In this document: piece by piece, positions 19,594-31,423 of the stretch
How the letters are laid out: every line of letters starts with the position of its first letter
Position numbering within the stretch: the stretch's first letter is position 1
Assembly (NCBI GenBank): GCA_937864925.1
Contig: CALMFH010000155.1
Coordinates: 1 to 64,000 of the forward strand
DNA from: an uncultured Alphaproteobacteria bacterium
GTDB lineage: Bacteria; Pseudomonadota; Alphaproteobacteria; Rhizobiales; Ancalomicrobiaceae
Direction of reading: 5' to 3'
Length of the DNA: 64,000 bases
The notes under the pieces: model-generated
Told to the model about the DNA's origin: nothing
Database searches by the model: none
The model's input: only the letters and a program-made list of their open reading frames with translations
Program-made: the position numbers and the translations under genes

Positions 19594-21426
19594 TCACTTC
19601 TTGGTGGCGACGATCTCGGCATCGCCGACGTCGAGGCCGAACTTCAGCGCCAGCGACACATGGTGGAAGCGGGCGGCAGCGTGGTCGTCGTGCAGAGCGA
19701 TGCCGATGATGTAGGTCTTGCCGGGTTCGATGGCCAGTTCCTTGTCGGTGCCGGCCTTGAGCGAGCGCGACATGGTCACGGTCCAGGTGTCGCCGTCGAG
19801 CGTGCCGGTGGCGTCGATCGGGCTGCCGCCCTCCATGATGCGATCGGCCAGCACGTAGCCGTGTTCGGGCGCGGCGCCGGAGCGGAAGCGCATCAGGTCG
19901 AGGAAGGAACCGGCCTTCAGCAGGGCGTCGATCTCGGCGGCCGGCTTCAGCTTGTTCCAGCCGCCGCGGGTGCCCGAATCACCCTTGAGGTCGACTTCGG
20001 TACGGGTGTCGGCGAGGTACTTGCGGACGCCGTCGGTGAGATTGAGCTCGGCCGGGCCGGCCTTCAGGGCGTCACCCTTTGGGGTGTCGGGCATGGAGCG
20101 GGCGTCGGAGTGGCACGAGGTCCAGCAGCCGGCCTGGTCGATGCGCTCGATGCCTTCGGCCTTGGAGAGCGTCACGGCGAGCTTGACCTGATTGGTCGGA
20201 TCGAGCTTGCCACCCTCGGCGAAGGGCGCCGGTGTGTGGGCGGCGTTCTTCCACTGGAAGCGGAAGTGCAGTTTGTCGGCGTCGTAGACGACCTGGACAC
20301 CGACATCGACGTTGCCGCGCTTGCCGGGAATGGGGGTCGGCTCGGCCTTCTCACCGGAGACGATCTTGGCGCCCATCTCGCGGGTTTCCTTGAGATGGCA
20401 CTCAGCGCAGCGGTCGCCGGACTTCAGATAGGTGCGGGCGCCGCCGTGGTCTCGGCCGGTCTGGACCCACTCGTAGGAAGCGATGCCGGGGTAGAAGAGG
20501 TTGACCTTCTGAACCTTGACGCCGGCCCAGTCGATGCCGCCGGTCGCGGCCGGAGCGGCAGCGGGGGCCGGAGCCGCGGCGGCAGCGGGGGCTGCGCCAT
20601 CGGCCGGCTTGGCGGCGGCGACGGCGGCGGCGATCTTGGCCTGCGCCGCCTTCTCGATCTCGGCCCTGGCCTCGGTGATCTTGTTGGAGGCCAGTGTCTC
20701 GGCGGCGGCGGCGATCTCGGCGTCCTTGGCCTTGGCGGCGGCGGCCTCCTTGGCTTCGGCGCGGGTGAGGCCGTCCTTGTAGGTCGCCGGGATCGGGCGG
20801 GCGAAAGCGGCGACCGGCTTCTCCAGCGCTTCCATCTCGGCGTCGGTCAGGCGGTCACGGACGTTCTTGTGGGCGATGCCCTTGTGGCAGTCGATGCAGG
20901 TGTTGCCGGATTCCATCGCCGCCATGTGCTGCTTGCGGGCCCGCGGGCGCTGGTTCTCCGGGTTCATGCCCTCGAAGGTGTGACAGTTGCGGCACTCCCG
21001 GCTGTCGGAGGCCTTCATCCGGTCCCACTCGTGTTTGGCGAGGGTGAGACGCTTGGCGTCGAACTTCTCGGGTGTCGAGATCGAGCCGGTGAGCTTGCCC
21101 CAGACCTCCTGGGACGCCTGGATCTTGCGCAGGATCTTGTGGGTCCAGTCCTTCGGAACGTGGCAGTCGGAGCACACGGCGGAGACGCCGGTGCGGTTGG
21201 CCGCGTGGATGGTGCCCTCGTACTCCTTGAACACGGTGTCGCGCATCTCGTGACAGGAGATGCAGAACTCCTTGGTGTTGGTCGCTTCCATCGCGGTGTT
21301 GAAGCCGCCCCAGAAGACGATACCGGCGATGAAACCGCCGACGGTCAGCGTCAGGATGGACCAGGAGACGCTCGGCCGACGCAGGGTGGCCCAGAGCGAC
21401 GACAATGTTCCGAAGAGGCCCGCCAT
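19594..21426 (-). CDS. NirT/NapC tetraheme quinol dehydrogenase fused to an ethylbenzene-dehydrogenase-like heme domain
   Basis: A 610-residue fusion. Residues 1-190 are a NapC/NirT cytochrome with one N-terminal membrane anchor (about 22-42) and four hemes (CISCH 55, CSDCH 85, CRNCH 145, CIDCH 177). An Ala/Lys/Glu-rich helical linker and Ala/Pro hinge (about 220-297) lead to a periplasmic domain (about 298-610). That domain has CAECH (340), the unusual CX3CH site CWTSCH (434), and beta strands like the heme b/c domain of DMSO-reductase-family gamma subunits. NirT-type proteins carry electrons from quinol to periplasmic reductases, so it likely feeds NirS directly or via the cupredoxin and NirC. 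Confidence 0.85.
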   Translation of the reverse strand: MAGLFGTLSSLWATLRRPSVSWSILTLTVGGFIAGIVFWGGFNTAMEATNTKEFCISCHEMRDTVFKEYEGTIHAANRTGVSAVCSDCHVPKDWTHKILRKIQASQEVWGKLTGSISTPEKFDAKRLTLAKHEWDRMKASDSRECRNCHTFEGMNPENQRPRARKQHMAAMESGNTCIDCHKGIAHKNVRDRLTDAEMEALEKPVAAFARPIPATYKDGLTRAEAKEAAAAKAKDAEIAAAAETLASNKITEARAEIEKAAQAKIAAAVAAAKPADGAAPAAAAAPAPAAAPAATGGIDWAGVKVQKVNLFYPGIASYEWVQTGRDHGGARTYLKSGDRCAECHLKETREMGAKIVSGEKAEPTPIPGKRGNVDVGVQVVYDADKLHFRFQWKNAAHTPAPFAEGGKLDPTNQVKLAVTLSKAEGIERIDQAGCWTSCHSDARSMPDTPKGDALKAGPAELNLTDGVRKYLADTRTEVDLKGDSGTRGGWNKLKPAAEIDALLKAGSFLDLMRFRSGAAPEHGYVLADRIMEGGSPIDATGTLDGDTWTVTMSRSLKAGTDKELAIEPGKTYIIGIALHDDHAAARFHHVSLALKFGLDVGDAEIVATKK

Positions 21427-21504: not shown

Positions 21505-23208
<1,704 letters not shown>

Positions 23209-23258: not shown

Positions 23259-23272
23259 TTGAGAACCGTCAA
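23259..23272 (-). promoter_or_regulatory. FNR/DNR/NnrR-type box upstream of nirS
   Basis: On the minus strand this reads TTGAC-GGTT-CTCAA, matching TTGAT-N4-ATCAA at eight of ten positions with the correct symmetry. Its centre lies 66 bases before the nirS ATG, consistent with an activator at about -41.5 and a 25-base leader. It is also 40 bases before the divergent gene at 23306. Confidence 0.65.
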
Positions 23273-24128: not shown

Positions 24129-24228
24129 GTGAGGCGCGGCGACGTTCGATCGAGCGGTTTTCTCGGGGATCGATCATGGTCTAGTCTGCCGCCTTCCCGT
24201 GACCCGATCCCCGCCACCGAGAGACCCC

Positions 24229-25398
24229 ATGTTCGAGACCCTCGCCGAGCAACCCGCCGACGCCCTTCTCGCCCTCATCGGCCTCTTCCGCGACGATCCG
24301 CGGCAGGGCAAGCTCGATCTCGGCGTCGGGGTCTATCGCGACGAGACCGGCGCCACGCCGATCATGGCGGCGGTGAAGGAGGCCGAGCGCATCCTGCTCG
24401 AGACCCGCACCAGCAAGTCCTATCTCGGGCCGGAAGGTGACCTCGCCTACGTCGATCTCCTCAAGCCGATCGCCTTCGGTGCCGATCCGGGGCCGCGGCT
24501 GACGGGCGTGCAGACACCGGGCGGCACCGGCGCGCTGAGGCTCGGTGCGGAACTGATCGCCATGGCGAAGCCGGGCGCGCGGGTGCTGGTCGGGACGCCG
24601 ACCTGGCCCAACCATGCGCCGATCATCAAGGCGACCGGGCTCACCCTCGTCGCCCACCCGTTCTTCGACGTGGCGACGCAGACCCTCGATTTCGCGGCGT
24701 TGACTGCGGCGATCGCCGCCTCGGCTCCGGGCGACGTGGTGCTGCTGCACGGCTGTTGCCACAACCCGGCCGGCGCCGACCTCTGCGATGCGCAATGGGA
24801 CGACCTCGCCCGCCTGCTGGCGGAACGCGGCGTGACCCCCTTCGTCGATCTCGCCTATCAGGGGTTGGGGCGCGGCCTCGACGCCGATGCCTACGGCACC
24901 CGCCGGTTGATGACGACACTGCCGGAGGTGCTGGTCGCCTATTCCTGCGACAAGAACTTCGGCCTCTATCGCGAGCGGGTAGGGGCGCTCTATGCGCTCG
25001 CCGCCGACGAGGCTTCGGCGGCGGCGGTGAAGTCCAACATGGCGGCACTCGCCCGGGTGAACTGGTCGATGCCGCCGGATCACGGCGCGGCGATCGTGCG
25101 CACCGTGCTGGAGAGCGCCGAGCTGACCGCGATCTGGCGCGACGAACTCGACCGTATGGGAGCGCGGGTCCGGGCGGTGCGGGCCGCGCTGGCGGACGCG
25201 GAGCCGAAGCTCGCCTGGATCGCCGACCAGCAGGGCATGTTCTCGACCCTGCCGCTCGCCAGATCGCAGATCGAGCGCCTGCGCCTCGACCACGGGGTCT
25301 ACATGGCGGGTTCGGGGCGGATCAATCTCGCCGGTCTCCGGGTCGGCGACGTGCCTGCCTTCGTCGAGGCACTGGCGGCGGTCGGGTTCCCGGGCTGA
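24229..25398 (+). CDS. aromatic amino acid / aspartate aminotransferase (class I)
   Basis: A 389-residue PLP-dependent aminotransferase of the AspC/TyrB group. Landmarks are LDLGVGVYRDE, the GGTGALRLG phosphate-binding turn, HGCCHNPAGAD, and the PLP lysine in SCDKNFGLYRERVG. The usual Ser before the Lys motif is partly replaced (SCDK instead of SxSK). Substrates are probably aromatic amino acids or aspartate with 2-oxoglutarate. It has no evident tie to denitrification and is probably a housekeeping gene beside the cluster. Confidence 0.88.
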   Translation: MFETLAEQPADALLALIGLFRDDPRQGKLDLGVGVYRDETGATPIMAAVKEAERILLETRTSKSYLGPEGDLAYVDLLKPIAFGADPGPRLTGVQTPGGTGALRLGAELIAMAKPGARVLVGTPTWPNHAPIIKATGLTLVAHPFFDVATQTLDFAALTAAIAASAPGDVVLLHGCCHNPAGADLCDAQWDDLARLLAERGVTPFVDLAYQGLGRGLDADAYGTRRLMTTLPEVLVAYSCDKNFGLYRERVGALYALAADEASAAAVKSNMAALARVNWSMPPDHGAAIVRTVLESAELTAIWRDELDRMGARVRAVRAALADAEPKLAWIADQQGMFSTLPLARSQIERLRLDHGVYMAGSGRINLAGLRVGDVPAFVEALAAVGFPG

Positions 25399-25510: not shown

Positions 25511-26206
25511 TCACTTGCCGAGCAGGCCGGACCTCTCCTCTTCGAGGTAGGCGATCTCGGCCGGGGTCAGTTCGATCGAATCGTAGCCGGTGATCATCGT
25601 CCGGACGTAGTGGGTCACCGTCTTGCCGGTGGTGGTCATGTAGACGTGGATGACGACGAAGGTGATCATCAGGAAGGCCGCCGCGGTGTGGACGAAGGCG
25701 ACGATCGGCAGGCCGAGGGTGCCGATCGCCCAGGACGCCCACCACGGATAGGTCAGATAGACGATACCCGACGACCACAGCGCCGGGCCGATCATCACCA
25801 TGAAGAACAGATAGGCGAGGGACTGCAAAGCGTTCTGCTTGCGCCGGAGCGTCTTCGAATAGGGATGAGGGGCGCCGGTGAGGATGCCCCAGGCGTAGAA
25901 GCGGATCACCGCCGGAAGCCCCGAGATCTGGGGCAGGTACTGTTTCCACTGGCCGGTGGTGAAGTGCCAGAAGGTGGTGAAGATCCACAGCACGATCAGT
26001 GCGATCGCCGCCCACGAGTGGATCGTCACCGCGGTCGAGAACTTCACGAACGGCAATGTGCCGTGGACCGCGAAGCCCGATAACGCCAGGACGAAGATCA
26101 GGATCGCCTGTGACCAGTGCCAGAAGCGCTCGTAGCGGGAATAGATCATCACCGAGCGCTTGGTCTTGACCGGAGGGGTGCCGGCCGCCATCGAAAGATC
26201 GGTCAT
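25511..26206 (-). CDS. cytochrome b561-type membrane subunit partnering the octaheme cytochrome
   Basis: A 231-residue integral membrane protein with four main spans (about residues 33-50, 62-82, 125-150 and 165-190) and His residues placed to bind two b hemes (ERFWHW, TIHSW, FWHF, VHTA, IHVY). It resembles the cytochrome b subunits of thiosulfate reductase and Ni-Fe hydrogenase. Its start overlaps the stop of the octaheme cytochrome gene by one base, so the two form an operon. It would connect the membrane quinone pool with the periplasmic octaheme protein. Confidence 0.85.
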   Translation of the reverse strand: MTDLSMAAGTPPVKTKRSVMIYSRYERFWHWSQAILIFVLALSGFAVHGTLPFVKFSTAVTIHSWAAIALIVLWIFTTFWHFTTGQWKQYLPQISGLPAVIRFYAWGILTGAPHPYSKTLRRKQNALQSLAYLFFMVMIGPALWSSGIVYLTYPWWASWAIGTLGLPIVAFVHTAAAFLMITFVVIHVYMTTTGKTVTHYVRTMITGYDSIELTPAEIAYLEEERSGLLGK

Positions 26207-27864
26207 CACACTTCTCCGTGGGTCTTCTTCTTGCCCATGACGACGCGGGCGAGGCCGTGCAGAACGACACCACCGATGGTGGTGACGAACATGGCGTAGC
26301 CGAGCAGGTCGAGCCAACGCACGGTGCTGTGGGCCGGCATGTAGATGCCCGGCAGACCGGCGAGGCGGCTCTTCTCGGTGTGGCACTCGCCGCACTTCAC
26401 CGCATCGGTCTTGGGGGCCACCATGTGGGTGATCGGCCAGTTGGAGACGGTGGGCAGGAAGCCGACTTCGCCGGAGAACGGACGGTTCTCGATCTTCATG
26501 CCGGCGGCGACCGACTTGACCATGTCGAAGTTGCCCCAGAAGGCGGTGTCGTCCTTACCCCACAGGTGGTTGTAGACGAGCGACTTGTTCTTCGGATCCC
26601 ACGGCAAGCGGGTGTGCATCTCCTTGAACGGCCAGATGCGCGCCTTGGGATCGTTCGGCCCGCCCATCACCGCGTTGATCGGTACGGGCTGCTCGGAGTC
26701 GTCGATCTTGGTGTCGATGGTCGTGTACATCATCCGACCGTCGAACCACTTGTAGGTGGGGGCGAAATTCTCGTTCCACTTGAAGTCGCCCTTGATCGTC
26801 CAGTAGGTGTGACGTTCCTTGCCGTCACCCTGCTTGTACTCCTCCAGCGCATAACCCTTGCCGTCGATGAACTTACCGGCGGTGGACCAGTCCCAGTCGA
26901 CCATGGTGGCGACGCCGCCGCGGGCGATCTCGGGGATGTGGCAGGTCTGGCAGGCGATGCGTTCGGCGTGGGTGTCGAGCTGGAAGCCGATGAGGCTCGG
27001 CTTGTCGTGCGGCTTCGACGAATGACAGGATTCGCAGGTGGCGATGTCGCGACGGGAGCCGGGCGCGCCGGGGCCCTTCTCGTCCTTGGCGATCATGTCG
27101 TAGCGGCTGCCGGACACGATGTGCTTGTCGGAGACGTGGCAGTTGGTGCAGGCGAAGTTGCCGCCGTCGGGCGACATGTGGACGTCGAGAGCCTTGGACG
27201 GCGCATTGAGGCTCGAGTCGAGGTCGCCGTGCTTGACGCCGTCGCCGCCGCCGCCGTTGTAGTGGCAGGTGCCGCAGTTCTGACGGCCGGGCAGGCCGAC
27301 GTGCTGGGCGACTTTCGGCAGATCGATCGGCTTCTTGCCCTCGAACATCACACCGCAGGCGTCGTGTCCGCGGGAGTTCGGCAGACGGTAGTAGGTCGCG
27401 GTGGTGTCGTGGCAGACCAGACAGTCGATGTTGTTCTGGTTCGAAAAGTCGAAGGTGTCGTCCTTCCACCCGTAACCGGCGTGACACTGGGCGCACATGC
27501 CCTCGTTGCCGCGAGCGTTGGTGCAGAAGTTGTTGATGACGTTGTGCTTGCCGAGCTTCTGACCGGTCTTGGGATTGGTGTAGTCCCAGGTCCAGTGGAT
27601 CGACTTCATGAAGTGCTTGCCCGCCTCGGTATGGCAGGAGAGGCACGCCTTGGTCACCTCGGAACCGTCGGCGAACGGTCCCTTCAGCGCCTCGAACTTG
27701 GAATGGTCGGCGGTGCCGCCCTTCAGTCCGCTCGACTTCTGCGCCGCCACCGGCTTCGCCGGCGCCGACGAGAGTTGCTCGGCGACATCCTCCGCACGCG
27801 ACACGCCGGAGAACAGCAGTGCCACGGCGAACAACGCACCGGCCACACCAAGAGACGATCGCAT
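26206..27864 (-). CDS. octaheme cytochrome c, tetrathionate reductase (OTR) family, with C-terminal membrane anchor
   Basis: A 552-residue protein with a signal peptide (residues 1-24) and eight CXXCH sites (CLSCH 74, CAQCH 124, CLVCH 148, CGTCH 197, CTNCH 239, CESCH 277, CQTCH 305, CGECH about 503). Heme order and overall length match the octaheme tetrathionate reductase family, known from Shewanella to reduce tetrathionate, nitrite and hydroxylamine in vitro. Unlike that soluble enzyme, this one has a C-terminal transmembrane helix (about 520-540) followed by a basic tail. Together with the cytochrome b gene it probably forms a quinone-linked complex. The physiological substrate is unknown. 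Confidence 0.87.
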   Translation of the reverse strand: MRSSLGVAGALFAVALLFSGVSRAEDVAEQLSSAPAKPVAAQKSSGLKGGTADHSKFEALKGPFADGSEVTKACLSCHTEAGKHFMKSIHWTWDYTNPKTGQKLGKHNVINNFCTNARGNEGMCAQCHAGYGWKDDTFDFSNQNNIDCLVCHDTTATYYRLPNSRGHDACGVMFEGKKPIDLPKVAQHVGLPGRQNCGTCHYNGGGGDGVKHGDLDSSLNAPSKALDVHMSPDGGNFACTNCHVSDKHIVSGSRYDMIAKDEKGPGAPGSRRDIATCESCHSSKPHDKPSLIGFQLDTHAERIACQTCHIPEIARGGVATMVDWDWSTAGKFIDGKGYALEEYKQGDGKERHTYWTIKGDFKWNENFAPTYKWFDGRMMYTTIDTKIDDSEQPVPINAVMGGPNDPKARIWPFKEMHTRLPWDPKNKSLVYNHLWGKDDTAFWGNFDMVKSVAAGMKIENRPFSGEVGFLPTVSNWPITHMVAPKTDAVKCGECHTEKSRLAGLPGIYMPAHSTVRWLDLLGYAMFVTTIGGVVLHGLARVVMGKKKTHGEV

Positions 27865-28177
27865 CCCTTCCTCCCTCCCAAGGAACCGATCACTCCGGGA
27901 GCGTCGGCGCCGCAGGCGCTTAAATTATATTTATGATGAATATTATATTCGGCCTCCAAGTTTCCCGGATGCGACGGAATCTGCGGCGGATCGTCACCGC
28001 CGAGACTGGCAGGGACGGGTGTGGCGTCGGACGGACCTTCGGGCGGATTTTCGCCACGCGCGCCGAAACTCCCGGCCGAAGCGGATCGGCTTCCGGGAGT
28101 GTGGAAAAAGTCTGCGATCCAGAATTTTTCGGGTGCGCTCTCGGAGACCGGCCCAGCGGTTCGGAAAGCGCTCGCCG
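27865..28177. other. 313-base intergenic region with a very AT-rich promoter segment
   Basis: Separates the octaheme operon (leftward) from the end of the ferredoxin reductase gene. It contains the AT-rich block at 27920-27949 and a smaller T-rich patch near 28125. I see no gene that stands up: open frames here have no ribosome site or homology. Confidence 0.6.
27920..27949 (-). promoter_or_regulatory. AT-rich operator/promoter block of the octaheme operon
   Basis: A 30-base stretch made almost only of A and T in otherwise GC-rich DNA, with TATAAT-like hexamers on the minus strand and repeated TTATATT units around TATGATG. It lies 56-85 bases before the octaheme ATG. It may be the promoter and a site for an Rrf2-type or similar regulator; the factor is not identifiable by eye. 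Confidence 0.35.
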
Positions 28178-29401
28178 TCAGCCGGCACGGGCGCGGGCGG
28201 CGAGGTCGAAGGCCGGGTCGGCGGCTTCGGCCGCCGTCAGGTCGGTGCCGCGGTCGAGGAGTTTACGGGCCGCCATGTGGTCGGCGGGACGGTTGATGCT
28301 GTCGCAGCCGACGAAACGGCCGTCACGCCAGTGGAGCAGGGAGAAGCGTGCCTCCTCGGGCGATCCGAGCGTGACGCTGGTATCGGCGCCGGCGGAGAGG
28401 CCGGCCATCTGAAGTTTGACGTCGTACTGATCCGACCAGAACCACGGGGTGGCGGTGAACGGCCGTTCCTTGCCCATCAGCCGGGCGGCGCCGGACTTCG
28501 CCTGTTCGACGGCGTTCTGCACCGATTCGAGCCGCCGGAGCGTGCCGTCGGGAAGGCGCCGGGCGGTGCAGTCACCGAGAGCGACGATCGTCGGATCGGA
28601 GGTGCGCGAGAAGTCGTCGACGATGACGCCACGATCGCAGTCGAGGCCGCAGGCGCGGGCGAGCGCGTCGTCGGGGATCACGCCGACACCGACGATCACC
28701 AGATCGGCGGCGATCGGGCCGGCCGAGGTCTCGACCCCGGTGACGCGGCCGTCGACGCCGGCGAAGCCGGTGACCCCGGTCGACAGGAGGAGGCGAACGC
28801 CGCGGCGGGTGTGGAGGTCGGCGTACCAGTCCGAGATGGCCGGCGAGACGGCGCGGGCCATCAACCGCGGCAGGGCCTCGATCAGCGTGACCTCACGGTC
28901 GAACTTGCGGGCCGAGGCCGCCACCTCGAGGCCGATGAAACCGCCGCCGACGACGGCGATCGCGCGGGCCTCGGCCATACGGCGGCAGAGCGCCTCGGCG
29001 TCGTCGAGGGTGCGCAGCACCATGATGCCGTCGAGGTCGGCGCCGGGCAGGGGAAGGGTGCGGGCACGCGAACCGGTGGCCAGCGCCAGGCCTTCGTAGG
29101 CGACGCGACCGCCGTCGGCGAGCACCACCTCGCGAGCGGCGCGGTCGATCGCGGTGACGCGGGTGCCGGTGGAGAGTTCGATGGCTTTCTTGGCGAAGAA
29201 GTCCGGGCCGCGGATGGTGAGATGGTCGGCGCTCTGGTCGCCGCAGAGGACGGCCTTCGACAGCGGCGGGCGGTTGTAGGGGGCGTAGGGCTCCTCGCCG
29301 AAGAGGCGGATCGGCCCGGTCCAACCTTCGCTTCTCAGGCTCTCGGCCAGCTGCAGACCGCCCTGGCCGGCGCCGACGATCACCATCGCCCGTTCGCTCA
29401 C
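28178..29401 (-). CDS. FAD-dependent ferredoxin reductase (P450 redox partner)
   Basis: A 407-residue flavoprotein of the putidaredoxin reductase type. It has FAD-binding VIVGAGQGG at the N-terminus, the NAD-binding VVGGGFIGLEVAA in the middle, the IVALGDC FAD segment, and a C-terminal reductase domain. It transfers electrons from NADH to the [2Fe-2S] ferredoxin encoded just upstream. The start is taken as GTG 29401, which overlaps the ferredoxin stop (GTGA) and has a GGAG site eight bases away; ATG 29386 is the alternative. Confidence 0.9.
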   Translation of the reverse strand: MSERAMVIVGAGQGGLQLAESLRSEGWTGPIRLFGEEPYAPYNRPPLSKAVLCGDQSADHLTIRGPDFFAKKAIELSTGTRVTAIDRAAREVVLADGGRVAYEGLALATGSRARTLPLPGADLDGIMVLRTLDDAEALCRRMAEARAIAVVGGGFIGLEVAASARKFDREVTLIEALPRLMARAVSPAISDWYADLHTRRGVRLLLSTGVTGFAGVDGRVTGVETSAGPIAADLVIVGVGVIPDDALARACGLDCDRGVIVDDFSRTSDPTIVALGDCTARRLPDGTLRRLESVQNAVEQAKSGAARLMGKERPFTATPWFWSDQYDVKLQMAGLSAGADTSVTLGSPEEARFSLLHWRDGRFVGCDSINRPADHMAARKLLDRGTDLTAAEAADPAFDLAARARAG

Positions 29402-29721
29402 GACTGTGTCTCCGCAACCCTGAGGATCAATCCGTCGATCATCGGCTCCGCCTTGATCTGGCAGGAGAGGCGACTGTTGGGGCGACGCTCGGCGACGACG
29501 TGGTCGAGCATGGCGAGTTCGGACTCGCTCGGTGGCGGCACCGCTTCGGCCGCCTCGCCCTCGATGTAGCAGTGGCAGGTGGCGCAGGCACAGGAGCCAC
29601 CGCATTCGGCGTCGATGCCCTCGACACCCTGCGACGTCGCCACCTGCATCAGCGACCAGCCTTCCGCGGCGTCGATTTCCACTTCGGCGCCGGCCGGCTC
29701 GATGAACACCACCTTGACCAT
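29398..29721 (-). CDS. [2Fe-2S] ferredoxin (adrenodoxin/putidaredoxin type)
   Basis: A 107-residue ferredoxin with the adrenodoxin-type Cys pattern C-X5-C-X2-C (Cys 40, 46, 49) and a fourth ligand at Cys 87 (RLSCQIK). It carries electrons from the downstream-encoded reductase to a cytochrome P450. Coupled to the reductase gene by overlap. Lies 306 bases downstream of the P450 gene on the same strand. Confidence 0.92.
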   Translation of the reverse strand: MVKVVFIEPAGAEVEIDAAEGWSLMQVATSQGVEGIDAECGGSCACATCHCYIEGEAAEAVPPPSESELAMLDHVVAERRPNSRLSCQIKAEPMIDGLILRVAETQS

Positions 29722-30027
29722 TCCGTTCGTCCTCCTCGGGTCACCGTCGTCGTTCGTCGCGGCGGAACCGCGATGGTCCCGTCGCGACCGATCATCGGGC
29801 GGTTCGTCGCGTCGGTCCATGCGGCATCGCAAGCGTGGGAGCGCTTCTTCTGCGGCCCTCCCGATCGACGCCGTTCGGCCGCTCCCGCCTCGCAACGGGC
29901 CCGCTCACTCCCCTCGCGGGAGAAGGGGGGGCTCGCGCCCGGCGGACGGGCGGGTCGGGGGAGGATGGACCCTCCGCCGCCCGACCACGATCATCACGGC
30001 CGCCACCGCACCGACCTTCGCCGCGCC
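29722..30027. repeat. 306-base spacer with a copy of the dispersed palindromic repeat
   Basis: Between the P450 and ferredoxin genes. Bases 29904-29935 contain CTCACTCCCCTCGCGGGAGA followed by a G-run, related to the inverted pair at 42923-43060. No gene is seen. The element interrupts what would otherwise be a compact P450-ferredoxin-reductase operon. Confidence 0.5.
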
Positions 30028-31191
30028 TCACTGCACCGCCAGATCCAGCCGCAGCGGCGAGCGGAAGGTCGAGGACGGCATCCACGGGAGCTGTTCCTGG
30101 ACGCGGACGTAGTCCGGGACCAGCTTGTGGAACTCCTCCATGGCGATCTTCACCGACATGCGCGCCACCGCCGTGCCGAGACAGGCATGGACCGAGCCGC
30201 CGAAGCCGAGATGCCCCTTGGGCTTGCGCTTCAGGTCGTAGAAGTCGGGGTTCGGGAACTGACGCTCGTCGCGATTGGCGGCGCCGTAGGCGAGGCAGAC
30301 GAAGTCGCCCTCGCGCATGGTCTGGCCATGGAGTTCGGTGTCCGTGGTCAGGCAACGGCGGAAGCGCTGGGCCGAGGTGTTGTAGCGCAGCGACTCCTCG
30401 ATCGCGTCCGGCACCAGGCTCGGATCGGCGACGACGGCACGGCGGACGTCGTGGTGATCGGCGAGGTTGAGCGCGAACATCGACATGAAGCCGCCGAGCG
30501 ATTCGACGCCCGCCATGATCAGCGTCGTGGTGGTGAGCAGCACCTCGCGTTCGTCGAGCTTGTCGCCGTCGATCTCGGCCTGGGAGAAGTGCGAGATCAG
30601 GTCGTTCAGCGGGTTCTTGCGGCGCTCGGCGATGACGCCCGCGGCATAGTCCTGCATCCAGTTGTAGGCGGCGATGTGCTCGGGGCCCTTGGCCCGGCTG
30701 TGCGGGTCCGACTGGACCATCAGCACCGCCTTCTCGCGCACCGTCGCCTCGTCGCCCATCGGCAGACCCAGTGCGGCGAAGAGCACGCGGACGGTGAACT
30801 TGGCCGAGAAGTCCTCGATGAAGTCGAAGGTCTTCTCACCGGCGATCTCGGCGACGGAGGCCTTGGCGATGTCGCGGATCGGGTCGGCGAGCGACTCGAG
30901 ATTGCGCTTCATGAAGGCGTGCTGGATCAGGCCGCGCAGACGGTCGTGACGCGGTGGATCGGTGGTGCCGAGAGTGGCGCCGGCGCGGTTGGGCAGCTCG
31001 GTCATCAGGTTGCCCTTGGCCGAGGAATAGGTCTGCCAATTGCCCAGCGCCGAGACCACGTCGGCATAGCGGGTGAGCACCCACATGCCGGCCTCGCGGC
31101 TCCAGAAGCAGGGGAACTCGTCACGCAGGCGCTTGTAGTAGGGGAAGGGATCGGCGTCGACCGCCGGCGAATATGGATCGAAGCTGAACAT
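30028..31191 (-). CDS. cytochrome P450 (class I, bacterial)
   Basis: A 387-residue soluble P450. The heme loop reads FGGSVHACLGTAVAR with the thiolate Cys, the ExxR motif is EESLR, and the I-helix motif is AGVES, where Glu-Ser replaces the common Asp/Glu-Thr acid-alcohol pair. It needs the ferredoxin and reductase encoded downstream. Located beside protocatechuate 4,5-cleavage genes and divergent from a PobR-like regulator, so hydroxylation or O-demethylation of an aromatic acid is a fair guess. The substrate cannot be read from the sequence. Confidence 0.92.
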   Translation of the reverse strand: MFSFDPYSPAVDADPFPYYKRLRDEFPCFWSREAGMWVLTRYADVVSALGNWQTYSSAKGNLMTELPNRAGATLGTTDPPRHDRLRGLIQHAFMKRNLESLADPIRDIAKASVAEIAGEKTFDFIEDFSAKFTVRVLFAALGLPMGDEATVREKAVLMVQSDPHSRAKGPEHIAAYNWMQDYAAGVIAERRKNPLNDLISHFSQAEIDGDKLDEREVLLTTTTLIMAGVESLGGFMSMFALNLADHHDVRRAVVADPSLVPDAIEESLRYNTSAQRFRRCLTTDTELHGQTMREGDFVCLAYGAANRDERQFPNPDFYDLKRKPKGHLGFGGSVHACLGTAVARMSVKIAMEEFHKLVPDYVRVQEQLPWMPSSTFRSPLRLDLAVQ

Positions 31192-31423
31192 CGGACCTCC
31201 CTGGGGAGCACGCGTGCCGATGGTTCGGCGCGGCCTCCGCTCTCGTCGTTTCCGCAGTCGGCGCGATGTGTCGCGGCCGTGCGGGCGGCTCCTCTGCCGG
31301 CGCGAGACGCCGGACCTTCGGGAGCGAGGCGACGGTGCCATCGATCGGGATGCGACAAAATGGACGATAGGGGATAAATTCTGTACTTTTCCGATATGTT
31401 CGGCAGGTCGGACGGACTTCGAA
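31192..31423. promoter_or_regulatory. divergent promoter region of P450 and AraC-type regulator
   Basis: A 232-base gap between divergent starts. The part from 31355 to 31410 is AT-richer (for example GGGATAAATTCTGTAC) and probably holds both promoters and the regulator's site. No clean inverted repeat was found. Confidence 0.4.

Follow-up and report, generated by a model that had tools for sequence, protein, structure and literature searches.

The window, by which we mean the whole 64,000-nucleotide stretch of DNA that was analysed, encodes an octahaem cytochrome c of the OTR family with a C-terminal membrane anchor, followed directly by a dihaem-type cytochrome b. We propose that the two proteins form one quinone-linked complex of the inner membrane, with an architecture like that of formate dehydrogenase-N and hydrogenase-1, a reading to which we give a probability of about 60%. 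The OTR proteins purified so far are of a rarer soluble form only, whereas the membrane-anchored form with a cytochrome b is the majority form of the family. Two predicted features of the pair are new here: an invariant His in the membrane helix of OTR, and a cytochrome b that carries four putative haem His and an N-x2-Q-x3-Y motif, as in formate dehydrogenase-N.

An octahaem protein with a membrane helix and a cytochrome b

The OTR gene is found at 26206..27864 on the minus strand and encodes 552 aa. The protein scored 594.8 bits against TIGR04315 (cut-off 375), covering model positions 1-440 of 440, and it also matches PF11783 and the sequence of Shewanella OTR, 1SP3 (E 4.6e-104). In a fold comparison, the AlphaFold model of the window OTR matched 1sp3 with an E of 4.7e-39 and a TM-score by target of 0.82. 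The mean pLDDT of this model is only 70.5, with the lowest values at parts of the haem region, as is expected without haems. Eight CxxCH motifs start at residues 74, 124, 148, 197, 239, 277, 305 and 491, the first of them being the haem 1 motif CLSCH (27631..27645, minus strand); matches to TGYNNNNNNTGYCAY number 25 in the window, where 2 would be expected. A Sec-type N-terminal signal peptide is predicted at residues ~1-24 (MRSSLGVAGALFAVALLFSGVSRA; 27793..27864, minus strand), judging the translation by eye. The family score, the eight motifs and the 1SP3 match confirm the sequence-only reading, which had called the protein OTR-like; the upper limit given there, 27949, precedes the OTR start codon by 85 bases.

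The catalytic haem 2 of Shewanella OTR is Lys-ligated (Mowat 2004, as cited in PMC11024163). By alignment, Lys153 of that protein (1SP3 chain count) corresponds to Lys211 of the window OTR (27232..27234, minus strand), which is thus the predicted ligand of the active haem 2. This position is Lys in 121/121 aligned OTRs, and the pocket residues Asn111 (121/121), Cys114 (120/121) and Asp208 (116/121) are kept as well. Loss of the active-site Lys and its pocket had been named as what would speak against an OTR-like enzyme, and all four residues are present. Taken together, the score, the eight CxxCH motifs and the Lys predicted at haem 2 place the window protein in the OTR family of TIGR04315 as judged from its sequence. 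Membership of the hydroxylamine oxidoreductase (HAO), octahaem nitrite reductase (ONR) or NrfA families was also considered and rejected, as CxxCK, the active-site motif of NrfA and ONR, is absent from the window OTR and neither Pfam nor NCBIfam gave an HAO or Cytochrom_C552 match to it.

The conservation at haem 2 bears on whether the protein has a substrate reaction of its own. It could instead serve as an electron conduit between quinone and other periplasmic acceptors or donors, as is described for MmcA, an archaeal heptahaem relative (PMC11024163), and the lack of any conserved substrate-specific partner gene would fit such a role. However, according to the same source MmcA no longer has the motif of the catalytic haem 2 or its Lys, whereas OTR members almost without exception retain the motif, the Lys and the pocket Asn and Cys, and we regard a pure conduit as improbable.

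Residues 516-547 of the window OTR (26224..26319, minus strand) are hydrophobic (Kyte-Doolittle 1.65) and form a helix in the AlphaFold model, which is in good agreement with the C-terminal membrane helix that had been recognised from the sequence. Within it, the position of His536 (26257..26259, minus strand) is His in 115/115 membrane-type OTR tails, and Arg540 is found in 114/115. On the strength of this conservation we propose His536 as a residue of the quinone site or the haem edge. The C-terminal helix of HyaA and that of FdnH, both from E. coli, have a His at the matching place, as located by eye, and in those enzymes the region of the anchor His sits at the quinone end of cytochrome b. 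By the positive-inside rule, the basic tail of the OTR helix (KKK) would be on the cytoplasmic side. It is chiefly the conservation of His536 and its likeness to HyaA and FdnH that lead us to propose a quinone-linked complex and not a loose periplasmic enzyme.

The cytochrome b gene (25511..26206, minus strand) encodes a membrane subunit of 231 aa of the FdnI/HydC family and matches PF01292 with an E of 1.6e-22. Its start codon (ATG) and the OTR stop codon (TGA) overlap by one base (26206..26206, minus strand), which is consistent with a two-gene operon of OTR and cytochrome b. The AlphaFold model has a pLDDT of 89.7, and its best fold match in the PDB is FdnI, 1kqf_C (E 1.3e-4, TM-score 0.66), followed by the cytochrome b of hydrogenase-1. 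A single-sequence search of the PDB with the cytochrome b gave no useful match; it was the profile and fold comparisons that did. In the profile alignment H30, H63, H173 and H187 pair with FdnI H18, H57, H155 and H169, and N125 and Q128 pair with FdnI N110 and Q113. These four predicted haem ligands, together with the quinone-site motif N125-x2-Q128-x3-Y132, span 25646..26119 on the minus strand, and the haem His and N/Q positions are kept in 114-115 of 116 relatives; Y132 is also invariant or almost so in this set. Among the NCBIfam models, that of thiosulfate reductase cytochrome B scores best, at 109 bits, which is below its cut-off of 204. The PF01292 score and the four His point to a dihaem cytochrome b, in accordance with the partner that the sequence-only reading had named. 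The quinone link suggested there is likewise supported, since the anchor-helix His and the N/Q motif, both signs of the FdnHI/HydAC type, predict a quinone site.

From these features we infer complex formation, topology and electron path as follows. The octahaem head would lie in the periplasm, held to the membrane by its own C-terminal helix, and this helix would pack on the four-helix dihaem cytochrome b. A quinone site would be formed near the cytoplasmic face by the anchor His536 and by Asn125 and Gln128 of the cytochrome b. The two b haems and the chain of bis-His c haems would link this site to the Lys-ligated active haem 2 and carry electrons between them.

Occurrence of the pair and exchange of the OTR gene

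TIGR04315 was matched above its cut-off in 45 of 398 genomes drawn evenly from the phylum. A membrane tail is present in 39 of the 43 full-length OTRs; cytochrome b lies directly 3′ of all 39 tailed OTRs and adjoins none of the four tail-less ones. A scan of named GTDB genomes gave at least 557 relatives, of which 80 loci were fetched, a sample that overlaps slightly with the first (L007 is identical to L079). Tail and cytochrome b were both found in 77 of these 80 loci, two are truncated at the end of a contig and L128 has neither; thus every tailed OTR with sufficient downstream sequence in this set is followed by cytochrome b (77/77). Five full-length OTRs in the surveyed genomes have no tail, and none is followed by cytochrome b. 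The carriers include purple sulfur bacteria, tubeworm and clam symbionts, Thauera, Azonexus, Dechloromonas, Magnetospirillum, Rhodobacteraceae and Marinobacter, as well as MAGs labelled Nitrospirae and Chloroflexota. No third gene was conserved beside the pair in the 80 named loci.

The tailed OTR with cytochrome b is therefore the prevailing form in Pseudomonadota, and the soluble Shewanella type is a minority. The sequence-only reading had implied that an anchored OTR with a cytochrome b is rare, which these counts contradict, and the pairing was already noted in 2016 for Thermosulfurimonas dismutans (PMC4911364). Two loci of the survey are peculiar. A MAG labelled Stygiobacter (L091) carries a Magnetospirillum-like pair, which represents either transfer or a misbinned contig. 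In a genome of the same family as the window (G004, C58:185806-186437; L014, L023) the OTR is broken or frameshifted, its pieces lying in more than one frame, and the cytochrome b next to it shows 81% identity; this is either a disrupted gene or an assembly error.

Compared with genomes of the same genus, the window's block is syntenic, with identities of 95% for nirS, 96% for a cytochrome P450 and 85% for an aminotransferase. The OTR is 52% identical to its same-genus counterparts and the cytochrome b about 80%. At the DNA level, identity drops from about 85-93% to about 60% (mostly 45-75%) within 26000..28180, a segment that takes in OTR, the promoter in front of it and codons 1 to ~65 of cytochrome b, and it rises again past this segment; the flanks are about 75-93% identical. 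The OTR tree places the window with G010 and next with purple sulfur bacteria, whereas the cytochrome b tree places it with its own genus, and AU tests reject the swapped OTR and cytochrome b topologies (p 1e-73 and below 1e-4). The drop in identity and the conflicting trees show that OTR was exchanged in situ by recombination while most of cytochrome b was retained. As G010 shares the OTR type of the window, the simpler reading of the sequences is that the replacement occurred in the lineage of the two same-genus genomes G001 and G002 and not in that of the window.

Partly different phylogenies would also be expected to arise if OTR and cytochrome b were mere neighbours that form no complex. 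Against this, cytochrome b stands directly 3′ of every tailed OTR with sufficient sequence, across several classes, and in the window the codons of the two genes overlap. We consider mere adjacency highly improbable and keep to the complex.

Neighbourhood, regulation and direction of electron flow

The pair had been described as lying next to the nitrite reductase operon. Indeed, nirS (21505-23199, minus strand) and nirT (19594-21426, minus strand) are found 2.3 kb downstream, but an aminotransferase gene (24199-25398, plus strand) and another predicted plus-strand ORF lie between. These opposite-strand genes make nirS/nirT a transcription unit separate from the pair. The linkage was seen in the two same-genus genomes, while in G010, G098 and G005 the ~8-9 kb around the pair contained no nir gene. 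The proximity is therefore real, but of the genomes examined only those of the window's genus show it, and it says little on function. The window nirT product is a fusion of a NapC/NirT-type tetrahaem domain with a haem domain of the ethylbenzene-dehydrogenase type (PF09459) at its C-terminus, and this arrangement, adjoining nirS, is conserved in two same-genus genomes. Besides nirS and nirT, the window contains nirJ and part of nosZ. An FNR/NNR-like box (TTGAGAACCGTCAA, 23259-23272) with one mismatch lies ~60 bases upstream of nirS; over the window as a whole it exceeds chance only slightly. Upstream of OTR, 28178-31341 (minus strand) encodes the cytochrome P450, a 2Fe-2S ferredoxin and a ferredoxin reductase, a P450 electron-transfer set.

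FNR-type boxes were found upstream of OTR in 23 of the 77 named loci, as compared to 3.6 in random windows from the same loci, and most of them are located 60-150 bases before the OTR start. No FNR-type box is present in the OTR promoter of the window itself, and sites of the NsrR, HcpR, ArcA and NarL types in front of OTR were no more frequent than expected by chance. NosZ occurs in 40% of the genomes with a membrane OTR and in 12% of those lacking OTR (Fisher p 3e-5); for SoxB the shares are 30% and 13% (p 0.009). Both tests ignore shared ancestry. The host genome of the window contains soxB. NrfA was found in only 1 of 40 membrane-OTR genomes, whereas all four tail-less-OTR genomes (G307, G331, G334 and G419) have it. 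This split, though seen with four tail-less genomes, suggests a division of roles between soluble and membrane OTR. The FNR-type boxes, the association with NosZ and SoxB and the near-absence of NrfA indirectly favour a role in low-oxygen respiration. In Magnetospirillum gryphiswaldense, MSR1_25550 is OTR-like and not an HAO, and the gene is unresponsive to oxygen or nitrogen source (PMC12774639). A Thioclava Tn-seq paper lists OTR and, in the text accessible to us, gives no phenotype for it.

In vitro, OTR acts as a reductase of both nitrite and hydroxylamine (Atkinson 2007, cited in PMC4484225). We put at roughly even odds that the complex uses quinol to reduce nitrite, hydroxylamine or a related N-oxide at low oxygen in hosts that lack NrfA, with tetrathionate as a possible alternative substrate. 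The haem potentials of OTR are described as low, similar to -100 to -450 mV (PMC11024163). Uphill transfer from ubiquinol to such haems fits poorly unless the proton gradient drives it. Quinol oxidation at the cytoplasmic side would spend the gradient and not build it, and gradient-spending quinol oxidation has also been proposed for the thiosulfate reductase PhsABC. More tentatively, and with some doubt on our part, this could be a widespread complex in which the proton gradient pushes quinol electrons to a low-potential octahaem reductase of nitrite, hydroxylamine or sulfur oxyanions in NrfA-less organisms.

The clues to the direction of electron flow differ: the relatives in architecture are dehydrogenases, the relatives by cytochrome b score include a thiosulfate reductase, and OTR is a reductase in vitro. 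Run in reverse, the complex would be a quinone-reducing dehydrogenase that oxidises reduced sulfur (e.g., thiosulfate to tetrathionate) or another periplasmic donor, and energy would be conserved as in formate dehydrogenase-N and hydrogenase-1. FdnHI and HyaAC, the nearest architectural relatives, deliver electrons to quinone. Purple sulfur bacteria and sulfur-oxidising symbionts are the sources of close OTR relatives, membrane OTR is associated with SoxB, the host has soxB, and in lucinid symbionts soxYZ adjoins OTR (PMC11237559). However, the in vitro reactions known for OTR are reductions, and the FNR-type boxes and the association with NosZ indicate anoxic respiration, although denitrifying sulfur oxidisers would show both. 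We judge the reverse direction rather unlikely and lean towards quinol-linked reduction.

Comparison with known systems

We found no paper on the purification or biochemistry of a membrane-type OTR among the open-licence literature searched, and the octahaem proteins in the Dethiobacter and Deferribacter papers are remote or apparently soluble. The conserved anchor His and the Asn/Gln of the cytochrome b are direct mutational targets, and the proposed complex offers a tractable route to the role of OTR in NrfA-less denitrifiers and sulfur oxidisers.

Shewanella oneidensis OTR (SO4144, 1SP3) shares with the window OTR the eight CxxCH motifs, the haem 2 Lys, the pocket Asn, Cys and Asp, about 40% identity in the core and the same predicted fold. 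In contrast to the window protein, 1SP3 is soluble and has no anchor helix, and the OTR genes of its clade, which co-occur with NrfA, are not adjoined by a cytochrome b gene. The membrane-linked T. dismutans pair TDIS_1882 (OTR) and TDIS_1883 (cytochrome b) resembles the window pair as far as descriptions can be compared; the accessible text of the 2016 description makes no mention of an anchor helix or its His (PMC4911364).

PhsC corresponds to the best NCBIfam match of the window cytochrome b, but its catalytic partner is a molybdenum enzyme. The E. coli pairs FdnH/FdnI and HyaA/HyaC have the same plan as the one we predict here, with a periplasmic redox subunit, a His-bearing C-terminal helix and a four-helix, four-His cytochrome b. 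Identity to the window cytochrome b is about 20% in the FdnI and HyaC fold matches, and the N-x2-Q motif is common to it and FdnI. The heads differ: that of FdnH and HyaA is the iron-sulfur subunit of a larger enzyme, whereas that of the window pair is a multihaem cytochrome c.
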